Below the pieces are notes generated by a model, which saw only the letters and a program-made list of their open reading frames with translations, was not told where the DNA came from and did no database searches. Positions 2,532 through 53,560 of a stretch of 53,686 nt of DNA are shown piece by piece. A program made the translations under genes and the position numbers. This DNA comes from a virus: positions 1 through 53,686 of IMG/VR virus record IMGVR_UViG_3300049825_000213; one strand, 5' to 3'. The first letter of the stretch is position 1, and every line of letters starts with the position of its first letter.

Positions 2532-3338
2532 CTAATCGATAGGGCGCACCCGAATGCGCTGGAGTTCCACGAGGTGGTTGATGATTGCTATTGACTCCTC
2601 ACCTAGCTGAGTTCCGCCTCGCTTCTTATTCCAGTATTCGATGGCTGCAGATACCGTGAAATACCTGCAGCCGGCGCGGATCATGGGCTCGGTGTCGCCG
2701 GTTAATTTCATCAGCAGAAATTGATATCCGTCAGACCTTATTGGCCCTTGGATAACCCATTGGGTTCCAAGATCGGCGCGGGAGAGATCGGCGCGGGAGA
2801 GATTGGCGCTGGAGAGATCGGCGCTGGAGAGATCGGCGCCGTAGAGATAGGCGCTGGAGAGATCGGCGCTGGAGAGATTGGCGCCAGAGAGATCGGCGCG
2901 GGAGAGATCGGCGCCGTAGAGATCGGCGCCAGAGAGATCGGCGCGGGAGAGATCGGCGCGGGAGAGATCGGCGCGGGAGAGATTGGCGCTGGAGAGATTG
3001 GCGCCAGAGAGATTGGCGCCAGAGAGATCGGCGCTGGAGAAATCGGCGCGGGAGAGATCGGCGCTGGAGAGATCGGCGCCGTAGAGATAGGCGCCGTAGA
3101 GATTGGCGCCAGAGAGATAGGCGCCAGAGAGATTGGCGCCAGAGAGATCGGCGCTGGAGAGATAGGCGCCAGAGAGATCGGCGCCAGAGAGATCGGCGCC
3201 AGAGAGATCGGCGCCCGCGCCAATCGCCCATTTGACGGCCAGCCCAAGCTTTACTGAGGCGGCAGTATCATCAGCACAATCAACTTCGGCTGTCATCTGC
3301 ACATTGCCCGACAGTCTATTTCTTATGTCTATTTTCAT
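2532..3338 (-). CDS. Pentapeptide-repeat protein B, 268 aa
   Basis: First gene of the leftward early operon. It has the same architecture as its downstream paralogue: a leader starting [20 protein letters not shown], a longer run of about 29 pentapeptides (A-D/N-L-S/Y-x), and the [15 protein letters not shown]-terminal domain. The predicted right-handed beta-helix is longer by about seven pentapeptides, nearly two coils. GAGGA lies 11 bases before the ATG, a loose spacing. As the first gene expressed it could be an inhibitor of a host DNA-binding enzyme, by analogy with DNA-mimic pentapeptide proteins. No direct sequence evidence of a target. Confidence 0.85.
2617..2768. repeat. 152-bp exact direct repeat, copy 2
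   Basis: Second copy of the repeat at 1840..1991, inside the C-terminal coding region of pentapeptide protein B. Such long identical direct repeats are substrates for the phage's own ERF annealing system and could allow copy-number change of the pentapeptide genes. Confidence 0.9.
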
Positions 3339-3358
3339 CTTTATTTTGTCCTCGTATG

Positions 3359-3378
3359 ATAATCATGATCATGATTAT
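3359..3378. promoter_or_regulatory. 20-bp perfect GATC-centred palindrome in leftward leader
   Basis: ATAATCATGATCATGATTAT is self-complementary over all 20 bases and centred on GATC. It lies about 20-40 bases upstream of the start codon of pentapeptide protein B, downstream of the predicted leftward promoter. It could be an operator or a mRNA hairpin. A related TGATCA-containing dyad is at 12444-12471. Confidence 0.6.
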
Positions 3379-3446
3379 TGTTATCCCGACCAAGCATGCT
3401 GCCTGGATGAGGTTCGAAACAATGATTAGTGTCTGCATCATTCGAT

Positions 3447-3475
3447 ATTGACATTGTGTCAAAGCGCTGTCAACA
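3447..3475 (-). promoter_or_regulatory. Predicted leftward early promoter
   Basis: On the minus strand TTGACA (3475-3470), a 17-base spacer and CAATAT (3452-3447) form a sigma-70 type promoter. It would start transcription near 3440 and leave a leader of about 100 bases before 3338. The region is packed with TTGACA/TGTCAA elements (3448-3453, 3457-3462, 3470-3475, 3506-3511) that form inverted pairs and may double as repressor sites. Confidence 0.55.
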
Positions 3476-3505
3476 CAAAAAGTGACAGGATGGCAAAAAT
3501 AATTG

Positions 3506-3534
3506 TTGACACCGAATTGGCCGTATGCAAATAA
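3506..3534 (+). promoter_or_regulatory. Predicted rightward promoter before the XRE regulator
   Basis: TTGACA at 3506-3511 with a 17-base spacer reaches AAATAA at 3529-3534, a weak -10. Transcription would begin at about 3540, the start codon of the regulator, giving a very short or leaderless transcript as seen for some phage repressor maintenance promoters. The -35 overlaps a GTTGACA element that pairs with TGTCAAC at 3469-3475. Confidence 0.4.
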
Positions 3535-3539
3535 GGAAC

Positions 3540-3761
3540 ATGAACGAAAATCCTCTCTATAAATATCGTGTTGCTCAGGGTGTGAGCCAGACATGGCTGG
3601 CGTCATATCTGGGCGTGGCCAACTCTACAATCGCTCGCTGGGAGTCTGGCGAGCGCAAAATCAGCCCGGACAAAATCCAGGCTGTGGCCAGGCTGACCGG
3701 CATCCAGCCGCGTAAGCTGCGGCCTGATCTATATGGCGCCCTCGAAAGAGTGGCGCGATGA
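3540..3761 (+). CDS. XRE/Cro-type helix-turn-helix regulator
   Basis: A 73-residue protein starting MNENPLYKYRVAQGVSQTWL. It is a single HTH_3 domain: helices 2-3 read SQTWLASYLGVANSTIARWESGER. The ATG at 3540 is chosen over 3525 because AAGGA lies just before it and because XRE proteins start close to the first helix. It is divergent from the leftward early operon across a 200-bp region full of TTGACA/TGTCAA elements, the position of a Cro or CI-like regulator. It lacks any C-terminal cleavage or oligomerisation domain, so it is closer to Cro than to CI. The 3' end overlaps the alternative start (3733) of the next gene. Confidence 0.85.
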   Translation: MNENPLYKYRVAQGVSQTWLASYLGVANSTIARWESGERKISPDKIQAVARLTGIQPRKLRPDLYGALERVAR

Positions 3762-3891: not shown

Positions 3892-4434
3892 ATGCCACGC
3901 GTACAGATCGACGAAAAAATGATTAGGATTCCCCAGCGATGGGAAAGGATGGAGCGAAAAAAAAGATTGAACGCGCGGCCAATACCACTGCCATGGGAGC
4001 CAATTTTTATGCCCGAGGCGGTCGATGCCACCACAGAGGAGGCCACGGAGGTGGTCGATCATGAAAAAAAGAACCGGCCAAAATCATCCAAGGTCGTCGA
4101 CTCAGGCGCGACGTGCGATCTGCTTCTCGATGCTGTCCCATCTCTCTACTACATCAAGCGCGTAGTCGCGAAGGCGTATGGCGTCACGATGCTCGACATG
4201 GAGTCCGCGCGCCGCACAGCGAACATAGTCCGGCCCCGACAGATTGCGGGGTATTTGTGCGCCACAATGACACGTCGTTCGCTGCCTGCAATAGGCAGGG
4301 CATTCGGAAATCGCGACCACACCACCCAGTTGCATTCTAAACGAAAGATCGCCGCATTGCGCGCGGCTGATCCAGTATTTGATGCAGAAATAGAAACATT
4401 AAAAACCTCCATTCTGGAGACATTCAATGAATAA
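3892..4434 (+). CDS. DnaA domain IV-like DNA-binding protein
   Basis: The C-terminal part resembles the DNA-binding domain IV of bacterial DnaA: VAKAYGVTMLDMESARRT, RPRQIAGYLCATMTRRSLP, then AFGNRDHTTQLHSKRKI, the signature helix-turn-helix that recognises DnaA boxes. There is no AAA+ ATPase domain, so it cannot load helicase as DnaA does. It may bind or occlude DnaA boxes. AGGAGG lies 6 bases before 3892. The same frame is open from 3733 and an N-terminal extension of 53 residues is possible. The N-terminal part is basic and charged. It sits directly before a GcrA-like gene, so two host cell-cycle protein look-alikes are adjacent. Confidence 0.8.
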   Translation: MPRVQIDEKMIRIPQRWERMERKKRLNARPIPLPWEPIFMPEAVDATTEEATEVVDHEKKNRPKSSKVVDSGATCDLLLDAVPSLYYIKRVVAKAYGVTMLDMESARRTANIVRPRQIAGYLCATMTRRSLPAIGRAFGNRDHTTQLHSKRKIAALRAADPVFDAEIETLKTSILETFNE

Positions 4435-4485
4435 TAATTTGCCCAGCCGAATGCTATTACGGACGCTTCACGCTGGGTGCCCGGC

Positions 4486-4938
4486 ATGAACTGGGATTCC
4501 AAGAGCATGGAGATTGCCCGGTCATTGCGCAATAATGGGAAAACGATGGTCGATATCGGGCTCGTGCTCGGTGTCAGCCGTGGCGCTGTCGCCGGCATAA
4601 TAAGCCGGCATAAGGAATTCTTTGGCATTCATGTGCAGCCGGCGCGGCCCAAGAAGCCCAAGAAGCCCAAGAAGCCAAGGTTCGAGAGGGTCATTAATCT
4701 ATCGCAGCGGCCCAAGCCGAAGGATGTCAAAGTGCAGATACAGCCATCGCCGCCGGCAGTTGAACAATCTGTCACCGGCAAGTCGCTATTGGAGTTGGGC
4801 AACCATGACTGCCGCTGGGGCGTCGGCGAGGAGCCGGTGACCGGCCGGCACCTGTTTTGCGCCGCCTCAGTGGTGGACGGTAAGCCCTACTGCGGGCCTC
4901 ATTTGCGCATAGCATATCGCGAGATGAGGAAGTCATGA
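4486..4938 (+). CDS. gcrA-like: GcrA-like cell-cycle regulator
   Basis: 150 residues, close to cellular GcrA in design. The N-terminus is a helix-turn-helix (MNWDSKSMEIARSL ... MVDIGLVLGVSRGAVAGII), the basic middle has three repeats of PKK, and the C-terminus carries the conserved GcrA block: SLLELGNHDCRWGVGE, then HLFCAASVVDGKPYCGPHL with paired cysteines and a histidine. In Alphaproteobacteria GcrA recruits sigma-70 RNA polymerase to promoters with CcrM-methylated GANTC sites. A phage copy next to two methyltransferases suggests control of methylation-dependent promoters. The ATG at 4486 is preferred to GTG at 4477; no strong ribosome binding site. It is joined to the next gene by ATGA. 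Confidence 0.85.
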   Translation: MNWDSKSMEIARSLRNNGKTMVDIGLVLGVSRGAVAGIISRHKEFFGIHVQPARPKKPKKPKKPRFERVINLSQRPKPKDVKVQIQPSPPAVEQSVTGKSLLELGNHDCRWGVGEEPVTGRHLFCAASVVDGKPYCGPHLRIAYREMRKS

Positions 4939-5495
4939 AGCCGAAGCTTTCCCACATTTTCGAGCGGGAAACGCACGAACATTATGTGGAACCTTTTTGG
5001 TGCAGTGAGAGACTGTTCCAAGTTGAGAAGTTCGACGGTCCAGTATGGGACCCATGCTGTGGTTTTGGACGTATTCCAGACGCTGCCAGGTTGGCAGGCT
5101 ACACCCCATTTTATTCTGACATCAAAGATCGCGGCTATGATCCCTCGGGAACATGTCCGTGGGGGGATTTTTTTGAATGTACCGAACCAACCGATAACAT
5201 CGTCAGCAACCCACCGTTTGATAAATTTAGCGAATTTGCGAACCACGCGCTCAAGCTCGCCACGCGCAAGGTGGCAATGCTCTGGATCGTCCCGCGCCTG
5301 AATGCCGCGCGCTGGCTCCAGGACACGCCGTTGGCGCGCGTTTGGCTTCTGACCCCTCGACCATCCATGCCGCCCGGGCACGTCATCAGCGCCGGCGGCA
5401 AGGCGACTGGTGGTACACAGGATTTTTGTTGGTTGGTCTGGGACAAATCGCATAGCGGCCAGCCCGAGATGAGGTGGCTGCGGAGAGAGAAATGA
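4935..5495 (+). CDS. SAM-dependent (N6-adenine type) methyltransferase
   Basis: 186 residues with a class I methyltransferase pattern. Motif I is at residues 39-46 (DPCCGFGR) and the catalytic motif IV at 92-95 (NPPF), characteristic of N6-adenine or N-methyl-glutamine enzymes. No separate target recognition domain is visible and the chain is short, so it may modify a short DNA motif or a non-DNA substrate. It overlaps both the GcrA-like gene and the Dam-like gene by four bases, so the three are very likely co-translated. Target unknown. Confidence 0.8.
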   Translation: MKPKLSHIFERETHEHYVEPFWCSERLFQVEKFDGPVWDPCCGFGRIPDAARLAGYTPFYSDIKDRGYDPSGTCPWGDFFECTEPTDNIVSNPPFDKFSEFANHALKLATRKVAMLWIVPRLNAARWLQDTPLARVWLLTPRPSMPPGHVISAGGKATGGTQDFCWLVWDKSHSGQPEMRWLRREK

Positions 5496-6466
5496 CATCA
5501 CCACGGCGCCCAGCACTGCGCTGGCATGGCGGAAAATGGCGACTGGCCCCATGGATCATCAGCCACTTTCCGTCTCACCGCATCTATGTCGAGCCGTTCG
5601 GTGGGGCTGCGAGTATTTTGCTTCGCAAAACGCGCAGCTATGCCGAGATTTACAACGACCTCGACAATGAGGCGGTCAACCTATTCCGAGTGTTGCGTGA
5701 CCCTGTTGCCGCATCGAAACTGCTGAATCTGTTATATTTAACGCCATTCTCGCGCGTCGAATTTGTCGCTGCGGCCGAACCGTCTGACGATCCGATTGAG
5801 CAAGCACGACGATTGATCGTTAGGTCCTTCATGGGATTTGGCTCTAATTCATCATCTCGCTCAGTATTAGCCAATTACGCGGCGACCGGGTTTCGCGCGA
5901 ATTCGAACCGTTCCGGTACCATACCGGCACACGATTGGAAAAATTATCCAGATGCTCTGCCGTCCATAATTGATCGTCTGCGAGGTGTGGTGATTGAGAG
6001 TCGAGATGCATGGGAGGTCATGACCGCACACGATGGCCTGACCACGCTGCATTATGTCGATCCGCCCTATTTGCCGGAAACCCGCGGGCAAACGGCCATG
6101 GGCACGACAAAACATCAATACCGTTACGAAATGACCACGGAATCGCACATCAAATTACTCAACCGCCTAATGACATTAAAGGGAATGGTGATTTTGTCAG
6201 GATACCCGAGCCCAATTTATGATTCGCTGTTATCTGATTGGCGCAGGGTAGAGATTTTGGCCCTAGCAGACGGTGCTAGGCCGCGCACCGAATGCCTATG
6301 GCTCAATAAAAAATGTGCATCCGCCTTAGATGGCGAGTGGTGGAAAACCGAAACAGCCTATGACGCACAAGCCGATTTGGGGGGCTCGATCGATCTCGGG
6401 CTCAAGACCATCCGCCTTAGAGCAGTAGCCGGAGGGGAACCATGGGAGAGGAAAGCACATGACTAA
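5492..6466 (+). CDS. dam: Dam-family (D12 class) DNA adenine methyltransferase
   Basis: 324 residues. N-terminal LRWHGGKWRLAPWI is the D12-class SAM-binding entry motif, followed by YVEPFGGAAS. The catalytic DPPY is at residues 190-193. Order and length fit Dam/DpnM-type enzymes, which usually methylate adenine in GATC. The target here is not shown by sequence alone. The start at 5492 (ATGACATCA) makes an ATGA overlap with the previous gene; the frame is open a further 6 codons upstream. GATC-centred palindromes occur in both control regions of this genome (3359-3378, 12444-12471). Confidence 0.9.
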   Translation: MTSPRRPALRWHGGKWRLAPWIISHFPSHRIYVEPFGGAASILLRKTRSYAEIYNDLDNEAVNLFRVLRDPVAASKLLNLLYLTPFSRVEFVAAAEPSDDPIEQARRLIVRSFMGFGSNSSSRSVLANYAATGFRANSNRSGTIPAHDWKNYPDALPSIIDRLRGVVIESRDAWEVMTAHDGLTTLHYVDPPYLPETRGQTAMGTTKHQYRYEMTTESHIKLLNRLMTLKGMVILSGYPSPIYDSLLSDWRRVEILALADGARPRTECLWLNKKCASALDGEWWKTETAYDAQADLGGSIDLGLKTIRLRAVAGGEPWERKAHD

Positions 6467-8791: not shown

Positions 8792-9265
8792 GTGAATGAC
8801 ATTGGCCGCCCATGGTTATCCGAGAATCACGACCGCGACCACGGGCGGGAGGAAATCGTTGGGCCGGGCGGGTTCGATCACCTCGCAAACATCGCCGAGA
8901 AAGAAGTCCTGCGAAATAAAAAAGCGCTGGAACTATCTTGCGTATGCGAAAGCCCGATTGAGCTTGAATTAGGATCGTACCTTCTCATCCACCTTAAAGA
9001 CCCAAGACTGACTTTGGTTCCACAGCATCCTTGGCGGGGCTTTCGGATGGACTTTGCTCTCATGCGCGACGGTCTGCCGGTCCTGTTTATCGAATGCGAC
9101 GGTCGTGAGTGGCACTCAACGCAGACACAATTGGAAAGGGATGCGCGCAAAAACGCCGCAGCTGATTCCGCTGGCATTCCGCTGATCAGGTTCACCGGGT
9201 CTGAAATTTTCAAGAACGCGAACGGCATTGCGCGATTGGTCGCGTCCCAGGCACGGCAATCATGA
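8792..9265 (+). CDS. DUF559/VSR-like PD-(D/E)xK endonuclease
   Basis: 157 residues, GTG start with GGGGAGGG just upstream. The conserved region is SPIELELGSYLL, then PWRGFRMDFALMRDGLPVLF with IECDGREWHS, then ERDARKNAAADSAGIPLIRF. This matches the restriction-endonuclease-like fold of DUF559 and very-short-patch-repair nucleases: Glu in the first helix, Asp in RMDF, Glu in IECDG. It may nick or degrade DNA at mismatches, junctions or unmodified sites. It is fully linked to neighbours by overlaps. Confidence 0.8.
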   Translation: MNDIGRPWLSENHDRDHGREEIVGPGGFDHLANIAEKEVLRNKKALELSCVCESPIELELGSYLLIHLKDPRLTLVPQHPWRGFRMDFALMRDGLPVLFIECDGREWHSTQTQLERDARKNAAADSAGIPLIRFTGSEIFKNANGIARLVASQARQS

Positions 9266-52585: not shown

Positions 52586-53503
52586 TCGATACCTTCCCGC
52601 CAGCAATCGCGGCGACTACGGCTTGCGCCTGTTTTTTGGTGAGTTCGGCAAAGTTCACGAGGTCGTCCACCGCAGCGGTATTGAATTTTCGCCGATGCTC
52701 GATGTCGGCTTCCCGGCGCTTGGCTTCGGCCTCTTCGTCTGCTTTGACTTTCGCCGCGCGGCGTTGCTCTGCCTCGACGGCTGCGGCCTTTTCAAACTCT
52801 GCGCGGGCCTCGGCCGCAATACTGTCGCGTTCGGCCTTTTCTGCCGCTGCCTTGGCATTGGCCTCGGCCTGTGCGGCGTGGGCTATTGCGGCCAGTCGCT
52901 CACGCTCGGCGACCTGAGCGACGGCGGCGGCGCGCTCTTCGGCCTCCTGTTTGGCGCGTGCGGCGATACGATCGTCGCGCTCGCGCTGCTCTTGTTCGTG
53001 GGCCGCCTTGATGGCCGCGACTACGCGTTCAGCTTCCGCCTTGCGCAGCCGCTCAAGTTCGGCGCGCTCTTGGTCACGTTTAAGCGCATCCTTTAGGTCT
53101 ATATCTAGTGAATTATTGACGACTACAAGCATGTGTTCTGCTTGTGGTTGATATTCTTCCCATTGACGGCCCGGCTGGAAATGCCGCAGAGCTTCAATTC
53201 TGGCATACACTTCGGCGCCAGTTGGAATTGCTGTAAATGTTGCCAGCGACTGCAGCTCCATCAACATGCTCGCGTGCCCATTTTTCCGGGCCTCTTCCTT
53301 GGCCTCATATTCATCCACAGGCCTGCGGACCTCATCCCGGAGCGCGTCGAGACGGTCGCGGATGATGTGCCGGTCGGCATCAACCACACCAGCGGCACGC
53401 TTGAGCTCCGCGACGAAATTCTTTCCCATTTCGTCCAAGGCCGTTTTCGATCGCGCGACCTTGAACGCCAAGGAGGATGCTTCTTTGCGTCCGCCAGGCG
53501 TGC
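52566..53503 (-). CDS. Coiled-coil recombination-operon protein, 3' part
   Basis: With 121-1 this makes a 352-residue protein. The N-terminal half is helical (SLAFKVARSKTALDEMGKNF, VDADRHIIRDRLDALRDEVR). From about residue 190 a long Ala/Glu/Lys/Arg coiled coil follows, and the C-terminus (DDLVNFAELTKKQAQAVVAA) is a small domain ending ISY. Proteins like this are often found directly before exonuclease genes in phages. Possibly a scaffold for exonuclease and ERF; not proven. Highly repetitive codon use may have confused the assembly. Confidence 0.8.
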
Positions 53504-53560
53504 TGGCGTCGATGACTGTTGCGCGCACCTTGTGCTCGACATCGGCAATCAAAACCTCAA
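53504..53560. repeat. Contig-end overlap (equals 1..57)
   Basis: 57 bases identical to the start of the window. Joining 53503 to 1 gives a continuous reading frame, showing a circular or circularly permuted genome. Confidence 0.9.

Follow-up and report, generated by a model that had tools for sequence, protein, structure and literature searches.

Results

Gene content of the early operon

We describe the early region of a single virus record of 53,686 bases (IMG/VR IMGVR_UViG_3300049825_000213), which was analyzed over its whole length and is referred to here as the window. Four consecutive rightward genes in this region encode a DnaA domain IV protein, a GcrA-family protein and two adenine methyltransferases, one with an NPPF motif (the NPPF enzyme) and one of the D12 class (the D12 enzyme), as listed in Table 1. 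The first two are truncated or modified counterparts of proteins that drive the cell cycle of the host. This gene set had been proposed in an original prediction made from the sequence alone, and profile searches now confirm all four families, with the Pfam matches to DnaA_C, GcrA and D12 all lying well above the curated cut-offs. The four-base overlaps claimed for the last three genes are also present, as ATGA at 4935-4938 and again at 5492-5495, and a gap of 51 bp separates the DnaA-like gene from gcrA. The METHYLTRANSFERASES of the operon run in the order NPPF enzyme (4935-5495) and then D12 enzyme (5492-6466). The layout of the early region resembles that of rhizobial temperate phages, with a leftward arm that holds ERF, YqaJ/RecE-like exonuclease and NinB/Orf-like genes and a rightward operon that opens with an Xre/Cro-like gene at 3540.

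Table 1. Features of the early region of the window, in order of position (HTH, helix-turn-helix; ORF, open reading frame)
Feature	Position	Strand	Support
Early control region from which leftward (pentapeptide, ERF) and rightward genes diverge	3339..3539	.	ORF layout; GANTC count 0
Xre/Cro-like HTH regulator, first rightward early gene	3540..3761	+	Pfam HTH_3 1.1e-13; ORF open from 3525; ATG 3540 with AAGGA site
DnaA domain IV protein, 180 residues	3892..4434	+	Bac_DnaA_C 7.7e-24; 1j1v 1.2e-15; AGGAGG upstream of ATG 3892
GcrA-family protein, 150 residues	4486..4938	+	PF07750 6.2e-18; 7ye1 4.5e-11; model matches 7ye1, 5yix, 5yiu
NPPF adenine methyltransferase, gamma-class fold, PHROG 799, 186 residues	4935..5495	+	phrog_799 6e-41; M.TaqI 1g38 3.7e-6; ATGA overlap with gcrA
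D12-class (Dam-fold) adenine methyltransferase, DPPY, 324 residues	5492..6466	+	PF02086 6e-18; phrog_56 7.5e-64; 2g1p 7.6e-7; ATGA overlap with NPPF gene

A GcrA-family protein with an altered recognition helix

Few transcription activators are known whose action depends on DNA methylation, and GcrA is one of them. For the Caulobacter protein it is established that GcrA binds domain 2 of sigma70 and reads promoters that carry N6-methyladenine (reviewed in PMC7403470). The window protein matches the Pfam GcrA family over its full length (residues 1-148 against profile positions 1-149 of 155) with 66.1 bits against a cut-off of 26.9, and its start at 4486 places MNWD in line with MSWT of Caulobacter GcrA. 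Structures of this protein and of the NPPF enzyme were predicted with AlphaFold from viral alignments. The GcrA model (mean predicted local distance difference test score, pLDDT, 84.5) has an N-terminal domain of three helices and a small C-terminal domain, the linker between them being poorly ordered. In the PDB it is closest to 7ye1, 5yix and 7ye2, in that order, and the DNA-binding domain 5yiu ranks sixth, with E-values of 0.004-0.2, as expected of such small domains, and probabilities of 1.00. The first of these is the Caulobacter GcrA transcription complex and the second the sigma-interacting domain together with sigma70 domain 2; the model agrees with the latter complex over the C-terminal domain at a template modelling score of 0.77. 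The full-length Pfam match and the solved GcrA structures that head the list thus bear out the GcrA-like assignment.

The protein is built from an N-terminal HTH with an altered recognition helix, a linker and a C-terminal sigma70-interacting domain. Across 43 aligned viral GcrA proteins, the window protein among them, the sigma-binding domain shows little or no variation at Cys109, Cys125, Cys136 and His139. The recognition helix, however, reads SRGAVAGIISRH in place of TRNAVIGKVHRL, so that the canonical RNAVIGKVHRL is represented by RGAVAGIISRH, and positions N33, K38, V39 and H40, nearly invariant elsewhere in the 43 proteins, are G, I, I and S. This comparison set was gathered with a DNA pattern that demands the canonical helix, an alignment-based search for relatives having been dropped as the proteins are too divergent, and the contrast is therefore biased toward canonical GcrA; it is also seen against one host GcrA and against phage members gathered without that bias. 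No close relative of the window protein was found among phages and virus contigs. The altered helix nevertheless appears to define a real subtype because Rhizobium phage RHph_Y1_10 carries the same SRGxxxGIxxR type. The score against the NCBIfam equivalog NF050816 is 48.7 bits with a cut-off of 280, and by these profile scores the protein is a member of the family and not the host orthologue. Together, sequence and model suggest a sigma70 partner with a changed DNA preference, and as the recognition helix is altered, reading of methylated GANTC cannot be assumed.

A further GcrA-type protein was observed in the nearest long relative of the window (G036). This 287-residue protein (L065 8293-9156) opens with a GcrA-type HTH, seemingly has further HTH units and lies 0.8 kb upstream of the true gcrA of the same phage.

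A DnaA domain IV protein without an ATPase

The DnaA-like protein has a variable N-terminal stretch of 80 residues followed by the DnaA-box-binding domain. The open reading frame extends from 3733, but a perfect AGGAGG occurs 5 bp upstream of the ATG at 3892, and 3892 is for this reason the preferred start, in agreement with the original prediction. Bac_DnaA_C matches residues 140-206 of the long reading frame with 83.9 bits against a cut-off of 31.5. The absence of an ATPase is also borne out, as no AAA+ domain is present in the protein and TIGR00362 aligns only at positions 348-437 of its 437. In an alignment with E. coli 1j1v, the DnaA-box contacts, which we take to be R399, R407, Q408, D433, H434, T435, T436 and H439, are all identical in the window protein. 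The box-binding residues thus seem to be retained.

Two methyltransferases of different classes

The NPPF enzyme matches PHROG 799, annotated as a DNA methyltransferase, and contains a DPCCGFG motif and the NPPF motif of the original prediction; it has no Pfam family match. Its structural model (mean pLDDT 74.9) resembles M.TaqI, a gamma-class adenine-N6 enzyme. Protein p027 of Sinorhizobium phage phiLM21 also belongs to PHROG 799 and is 32% identical to the window enzyme over 145 residues. In a tree of 26 family members the window enzyme groups with the enzymes of Komagataeibacter phage phiKM1 and Caulobacter phage Sansa, and a larger supported clade around it (95/94) takes in Listeria, Staphylococcus and Campylobacter phage enzymes and excludes p027. 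Small NPPF/W/Y enzymes from Sinorhizobium and Paracoccus phages, unrelated to CcrM, methylate GANTC, the host CcrM site, and GANTC methylation has been proposed for all such small phage enzymes (PMC5537653). Because enzymes of this kind with that specificity were assayed, GANTC specificity of the window NPPF enzyme is possible.

The D12 enzyme scores 65.9 bits against a MethyltransfD12 cut-off of 22, in line with its predicted Dam-type identity, and its start is most likely the overlapping ATGA at 5492 and not 5474. It lies below the cut-off of the GATC-specific Dam subfamily (TIGR00571, 55.1 bits with a cut-off of 114.85), and a GATC target is thus not established. The predicted CcrM-type component could not be recovered: PF01555 (N6_N4_Mtase) is absent from the whole record, whereas control genomes for this family gave matches. 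The NPPF enzyme is of the gamma class (M.TaqI-like) and the D12 enzyme of the alpha class, neither being CcrM-type. A type II restriction-modification system was also considered and rejected as no partner nuclease lies beside the methyltransferases.

Occurrence of the genes in other viruses

GcrA matches were found in 4 of 15 virus contigs fetched with the DnaA-like protein and in 0 of 18 fetched with the NPPF enzyme. In the reverse direction, 15 of 50 virus records with a canonical GcrA also contain a DnaA_C match (11 of them above the cut-off), as compared to 1 of 25 control records, for which the NPPF enzyme or the terminase had served as query. This co-occurrence is confounded by host range, as viruses that bear GcrA are mostly alphaproteobacterial. 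In 9/15 of the records with both genes, the two share a strand and are no more than 6 kb apart. The more specific association is that between gcrA and PHROG 799 enzymes: in 69 non-redundant viral gcrA loci, three of the four such enzymes start no more than 1.2 kb downstream of gcrA on the same strand (p about 0.001-0.006), and the pairs draw on different branches of the methyltransferase tree. The arrangement is found repeatedly in phages that are unrelated and whose methyltransferases are of different lineages, which suggests that gcrA and the PHROG 799 methyltransferase form a functional pair.

Candidate target sites in the phage genome

The window contains 127 GANTC sites, an observed/expected ratio of 0.74 with a third-order expectation, as compared to 0.44-0.45 in Sinorhizobium and Bradyrhizobium phages and 0.74 in Bordetella phage BPP-1. 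No GANTC site falls in the early control region (3301-3600). GATC occurs as often as expected. There is no DnaA-box cluster in the phage genome, which holds 12 relaxed boxes where 20-25 are expected and no perfect TTATCCACA; depletion of boxes was rejected as a signal as phage F116 gives similar values. The phage genome thus gives no sign of being a target for a canonical GcrA or for a DnaA-type origin binder, and the remaining candidate targets are the host chromosome or altered sites. As a separate observation, GGATCC (BamHI) is absent from the whole window, where 6.6 sites are expected, while GATC is at expectation.

The virus, its likely host and other features of the early region

The record is a near-complete BPP-1-like podovirus. 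Its large terminase is 35% identical to that of BPP-1 and 41% to that of Acidovorax phage AP1, the recognized virion genes (portal/adaptor, major head and tail proteins) form a podovirus-like set, and no tyrosine integrase was found across the whole record. Bases 1-57 are repeated at 53504, and the next 126 bases (to 53686) begin as a copy of a stretch at 52895; these end repeats are artefacts of assembly, the genome being circular and near-complete.

By sequence identity the early genes are closest to those of Rhizobiales phages. For example, the ERF protein is 61% identical to a homologue in Bradyrhizobium phage ppBjS10J-1, the exonuclease 64% identical to its phiLM21 counterpart and the DnaA-like domain 58% identical to a protein of Bradyrhizobium phage ppBeUSDA76-2. 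GcrA is present in 146 of 150 genomes sampled from one GcrA-rich order and in 15 of 60 sampled across the phylum. This distribution and the affinity of the early genes to rhizobial phages make an alphaproteobacterial host likely. When genomes were scanned with the DnaA-like protein, the matches came mostly from Betaproteobacteria and Firmicutes, with no named alphaproteobacteria among them and no GcrA in 18 of the matched genomes. GANTC depletion was dropped as host evidence as the window value equals that of BPP-1.

Additional features were observed around the operon. On the minus strand beside the early control region, two neighboring genes (1761-2441 and 2532-3338) encode long pentapeptide-repeat proteins that share their C-terminal domain, probably as a result of tandem duplication. 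Pentapeptide-repeat proteins are able to mimic DNA. A 15-base direct repeat, CGAAACAATGATTAG, occurs with one mismatch at 3415-3429 in the control region and at 3912-3926 inside the start of the DnaA-like gene, and is a possible operator pair. Further along the same operon is an MTES_1575/DUF559-type nuclease gene (8792-9265); a related gene is similarly placed in G036, a genome that is without these methyltransferases.

Discussion

A candidate cassette for early takeover of host transcription

Our preferred interpretation, to which we give a probability of about 0.45, is that these genes form a cassette for early takeover of transcription, at the center of which is a retargeted GcrA serving as a sigma70 cofactor. 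As the front of the rightward early operon, they would affect host transcription and DNA marking through their products. The GcrA-like protein would dock on domain 2 of the host sigma70 via its conserved C-terminal domain, and its altered HTH would lead RNA polymerase away from the host GcrA regulon, most likely to middle or late promoters of the phage. The two orphan adenine methyltransferases, translationally coupled to GcrA, would mark phage DNA and presumably protect it from restriction, and the GcrA-like protein may read a mark supplied by the adjacent NPPF enzyme. The domain IV protein, unable to hydrolyse ATP or load helicase, would bind DnaA boxes and compete there with the DnaA of the host, either at oriC or at promoters under DnaA control.

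Several observations weigh against such a cassette. A target can be assigned to neither methyltransferase, and the counts behind the gcrA-PHROG 799 pair are small. Proximity of gcrA to any methyltransferase motif is weak (6/47 as compared to 4.6% in the background, with p=0.02 at one distance out of three). Additionally, G036 has gcrA without an NPPF methyltransferase or a DnaA-like gene, and in G016, which comes from soil and is related in its early region, the DnaA-like and NPPF genes are present without gcrA. As each of these relatives carries only part of it, the four-gene set is not obligatory.

An alternative is a mosaic of unrelated passengers, in which restriction-protecting orphan methyltransferases and two DNA-binding regulators, without any coupling of writer and reader, are neighbors only as early operons collect small genes. 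Gene sets do vary among relatives, DnaA_C proteins and methyltransferases are each common separately in phages, and the general proximity of gcrA to methyltransferases is weak. BPP-1, moreover, has an unrelated beta-class methyltransferase after cro, so the position looks like a slot for such enzymes. However, the ATGA coupling of gcrA with both methyltransferases, the repeated and apparently independent adjacency of gcrA and PHROG 799 genes, and the excess of DnaA_C in gcrA-bearing records over controls all argue for more than chance neighborhood, and we consider the mosaic somewhat unlikely.

Less probable is a replication-support module, in which the GcrA-like protein raises expression of host replication genes, as proposed for phiCbK GcrA (PMC3556154), the DnaA domain IV protein assists at the phage origin, and methylation sets the timing of phage replication, a role put forward for enzymes of the phiLM21 type (PMC5537653). 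The early operon of phiLM21, with its proven GANTC methyltransferase, DnaB helicase and DnaA_C-only protein (PMC5537653), and the gene group of RHph_N28_2 offer parallels for such a module. Its improbability follows from the lack of a DnaA-box cluster in the window, from a domain IV protein without the ATPase needed for origin opening, and from the altered helix, with which the host GcrA regulon is less likely to be activated. The original prediction in its full form, a phage version of the DnaA-GcrA-CcrM circuit by which replication timing is taken over at methylation-dependent GANTC promoters, would be complete in its three functional types if the NPPF enzyme, related as it is to small NPPF/W/Y phage enzymes that methylate GANTC (PMC5537653; 32% identity to one of them), were a CcrM mimic, but is unlikely given the separate, well-supported clade of this enzyme with Listeria, Staphylococcus and Campylobacter phage enzymes, the absence of a CcrM family protein from the record, the lack of GANTC in the control region, a GANTC avoidance not unusual when set against BPP-1, and the altered GcrA helix.

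The takeover claimed in the original prediction is thus upheld in part. The gene families, the operon, the phage context and the alphaproteobacterial affinity of the early genes stand, whereas a CcrM-type enzyme, GANTC in the control region and a DnaA-box cluster were not found. Takeover of transcription via sigma70 is the better-supported half of the claim. We treat takeover of replication timing as a hypothesis because those three elements are missing and the GcrA helix is altered.

The transcription-takeover cassette could be extended to a phage-owned epigenetic switch, in which the NPPF enzyme would write an adenine mark, the coupled GcrA would read it and bring sigma70 polymerase to phage promoters, and the DnaA domain IV protein would silence host DnaA, such pairs having arisen several times in alphaproteobacterial phages. 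We regard this extension as unlikely. Were phages to carry writer and reader genes that match, methylation of DNA would serve them as a regulatory signal of their own in addition to shielding them from restriction. With the components in one operon, whether viruses write and read host DNA marks for themselves becomes testable, and the small adjacent gene pair makes the long-standing question of phage orphan methyltransferases directly approachable.

Comparison with known systems

No open-licence paper that we found describes a phage gcrA adjoining a methyltransferase gene. Phage phiLM21 (KJ743987) resembles the window in its leftward NinB-exonuclease-ERF arm and in its Cro gene, which is followed by a rightward operon encoding both a protein with DnaA_C alone (p033) and a PHROG 799 enzyme, p027, a proven GANTC methyltransferase and CcrM mimic (PMC5537653). 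Unlike the window, it has no GcrA, its DnaA_C gene lies 3 kb away behind the DnaB helicase gene, there is no adjoining D12 enzyme, and its methyltransferase, 26-32% identical to the NPPF enzyme, falls in another clade. RHph_N28_2 holds two methyltransferases, DUF1376 and a DnaA_C protein inside 4 kb.

For GcrA, the nearest systems are Atu_ph08 and phiCbK (PMC6630229, PMC3556154). The phiCbK-like Caulobacter phages likewise encode a PF07750 protein (gp222), and the phiCbK homologue has been proposed to alter the replication state of the host (PMC3556154). However, these are large siphophages for which an operon with DnaA_C and methyltransferases is not described. Phage RHph_Y1_10 (MN988487), which shares the GcrA helix type, also has a methylase and RusA upstream and a homologue of window gene 10999 just downstream, but DnaA_C was not found in it and the methylase does not adjoin gcrA. 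The order gcrA, PHROG 799 methyltransferase, second adenine methyltransferase recurs in IMG/VR contig 3300023225_000002 (L171), which differs from the window in its canonical GcrA helix, in a second enzyme that is a PF05869 Dam and not D12, in the absence of DnaA_C and in a distant methyltransferase clade.

The Synechococcus-labelled phage Ssp-JY42 (PP438432) has, like the window, a GcrA gene and a gene for a DnaA C-terminal protein in one early operon and on one strand, but the two genes are 3.7 kb apart and no methyltransferase is annotated between or beside them. GenBank phages labelled Synechococcus, Microcystis or Nostoc (L153, which is PP438432, L154, H117, H119, H125 and H126) were observed to carry GcrA or close relatives of rhizobial phage methyltransferases, and their true hosts may be alphaproteobacteria that accompany cyanobacteria.

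BPP-1 shares with the window its terminase family (35%) and a methyltransferase gene, bpm, directly after cro. In contrast, Bpm has no significant similarity to either window enzyme, and GcrA and DnaA_C are not annotated. The BPP-1 gene right behind cro (L289 29758-30758) encodes a beta-class adenine methyltransferase, and phages of this group seem to have a methyltransferase slot at that place.

In function, the nearest systems are phiLM21 and RHph_N28_2, which combine a CcrM-mimic methyltransferase with a DnaA_C protein. Each component of the window operon is thus already known from alphaproteobacterial phages, and it is their combination in one operon that is new.

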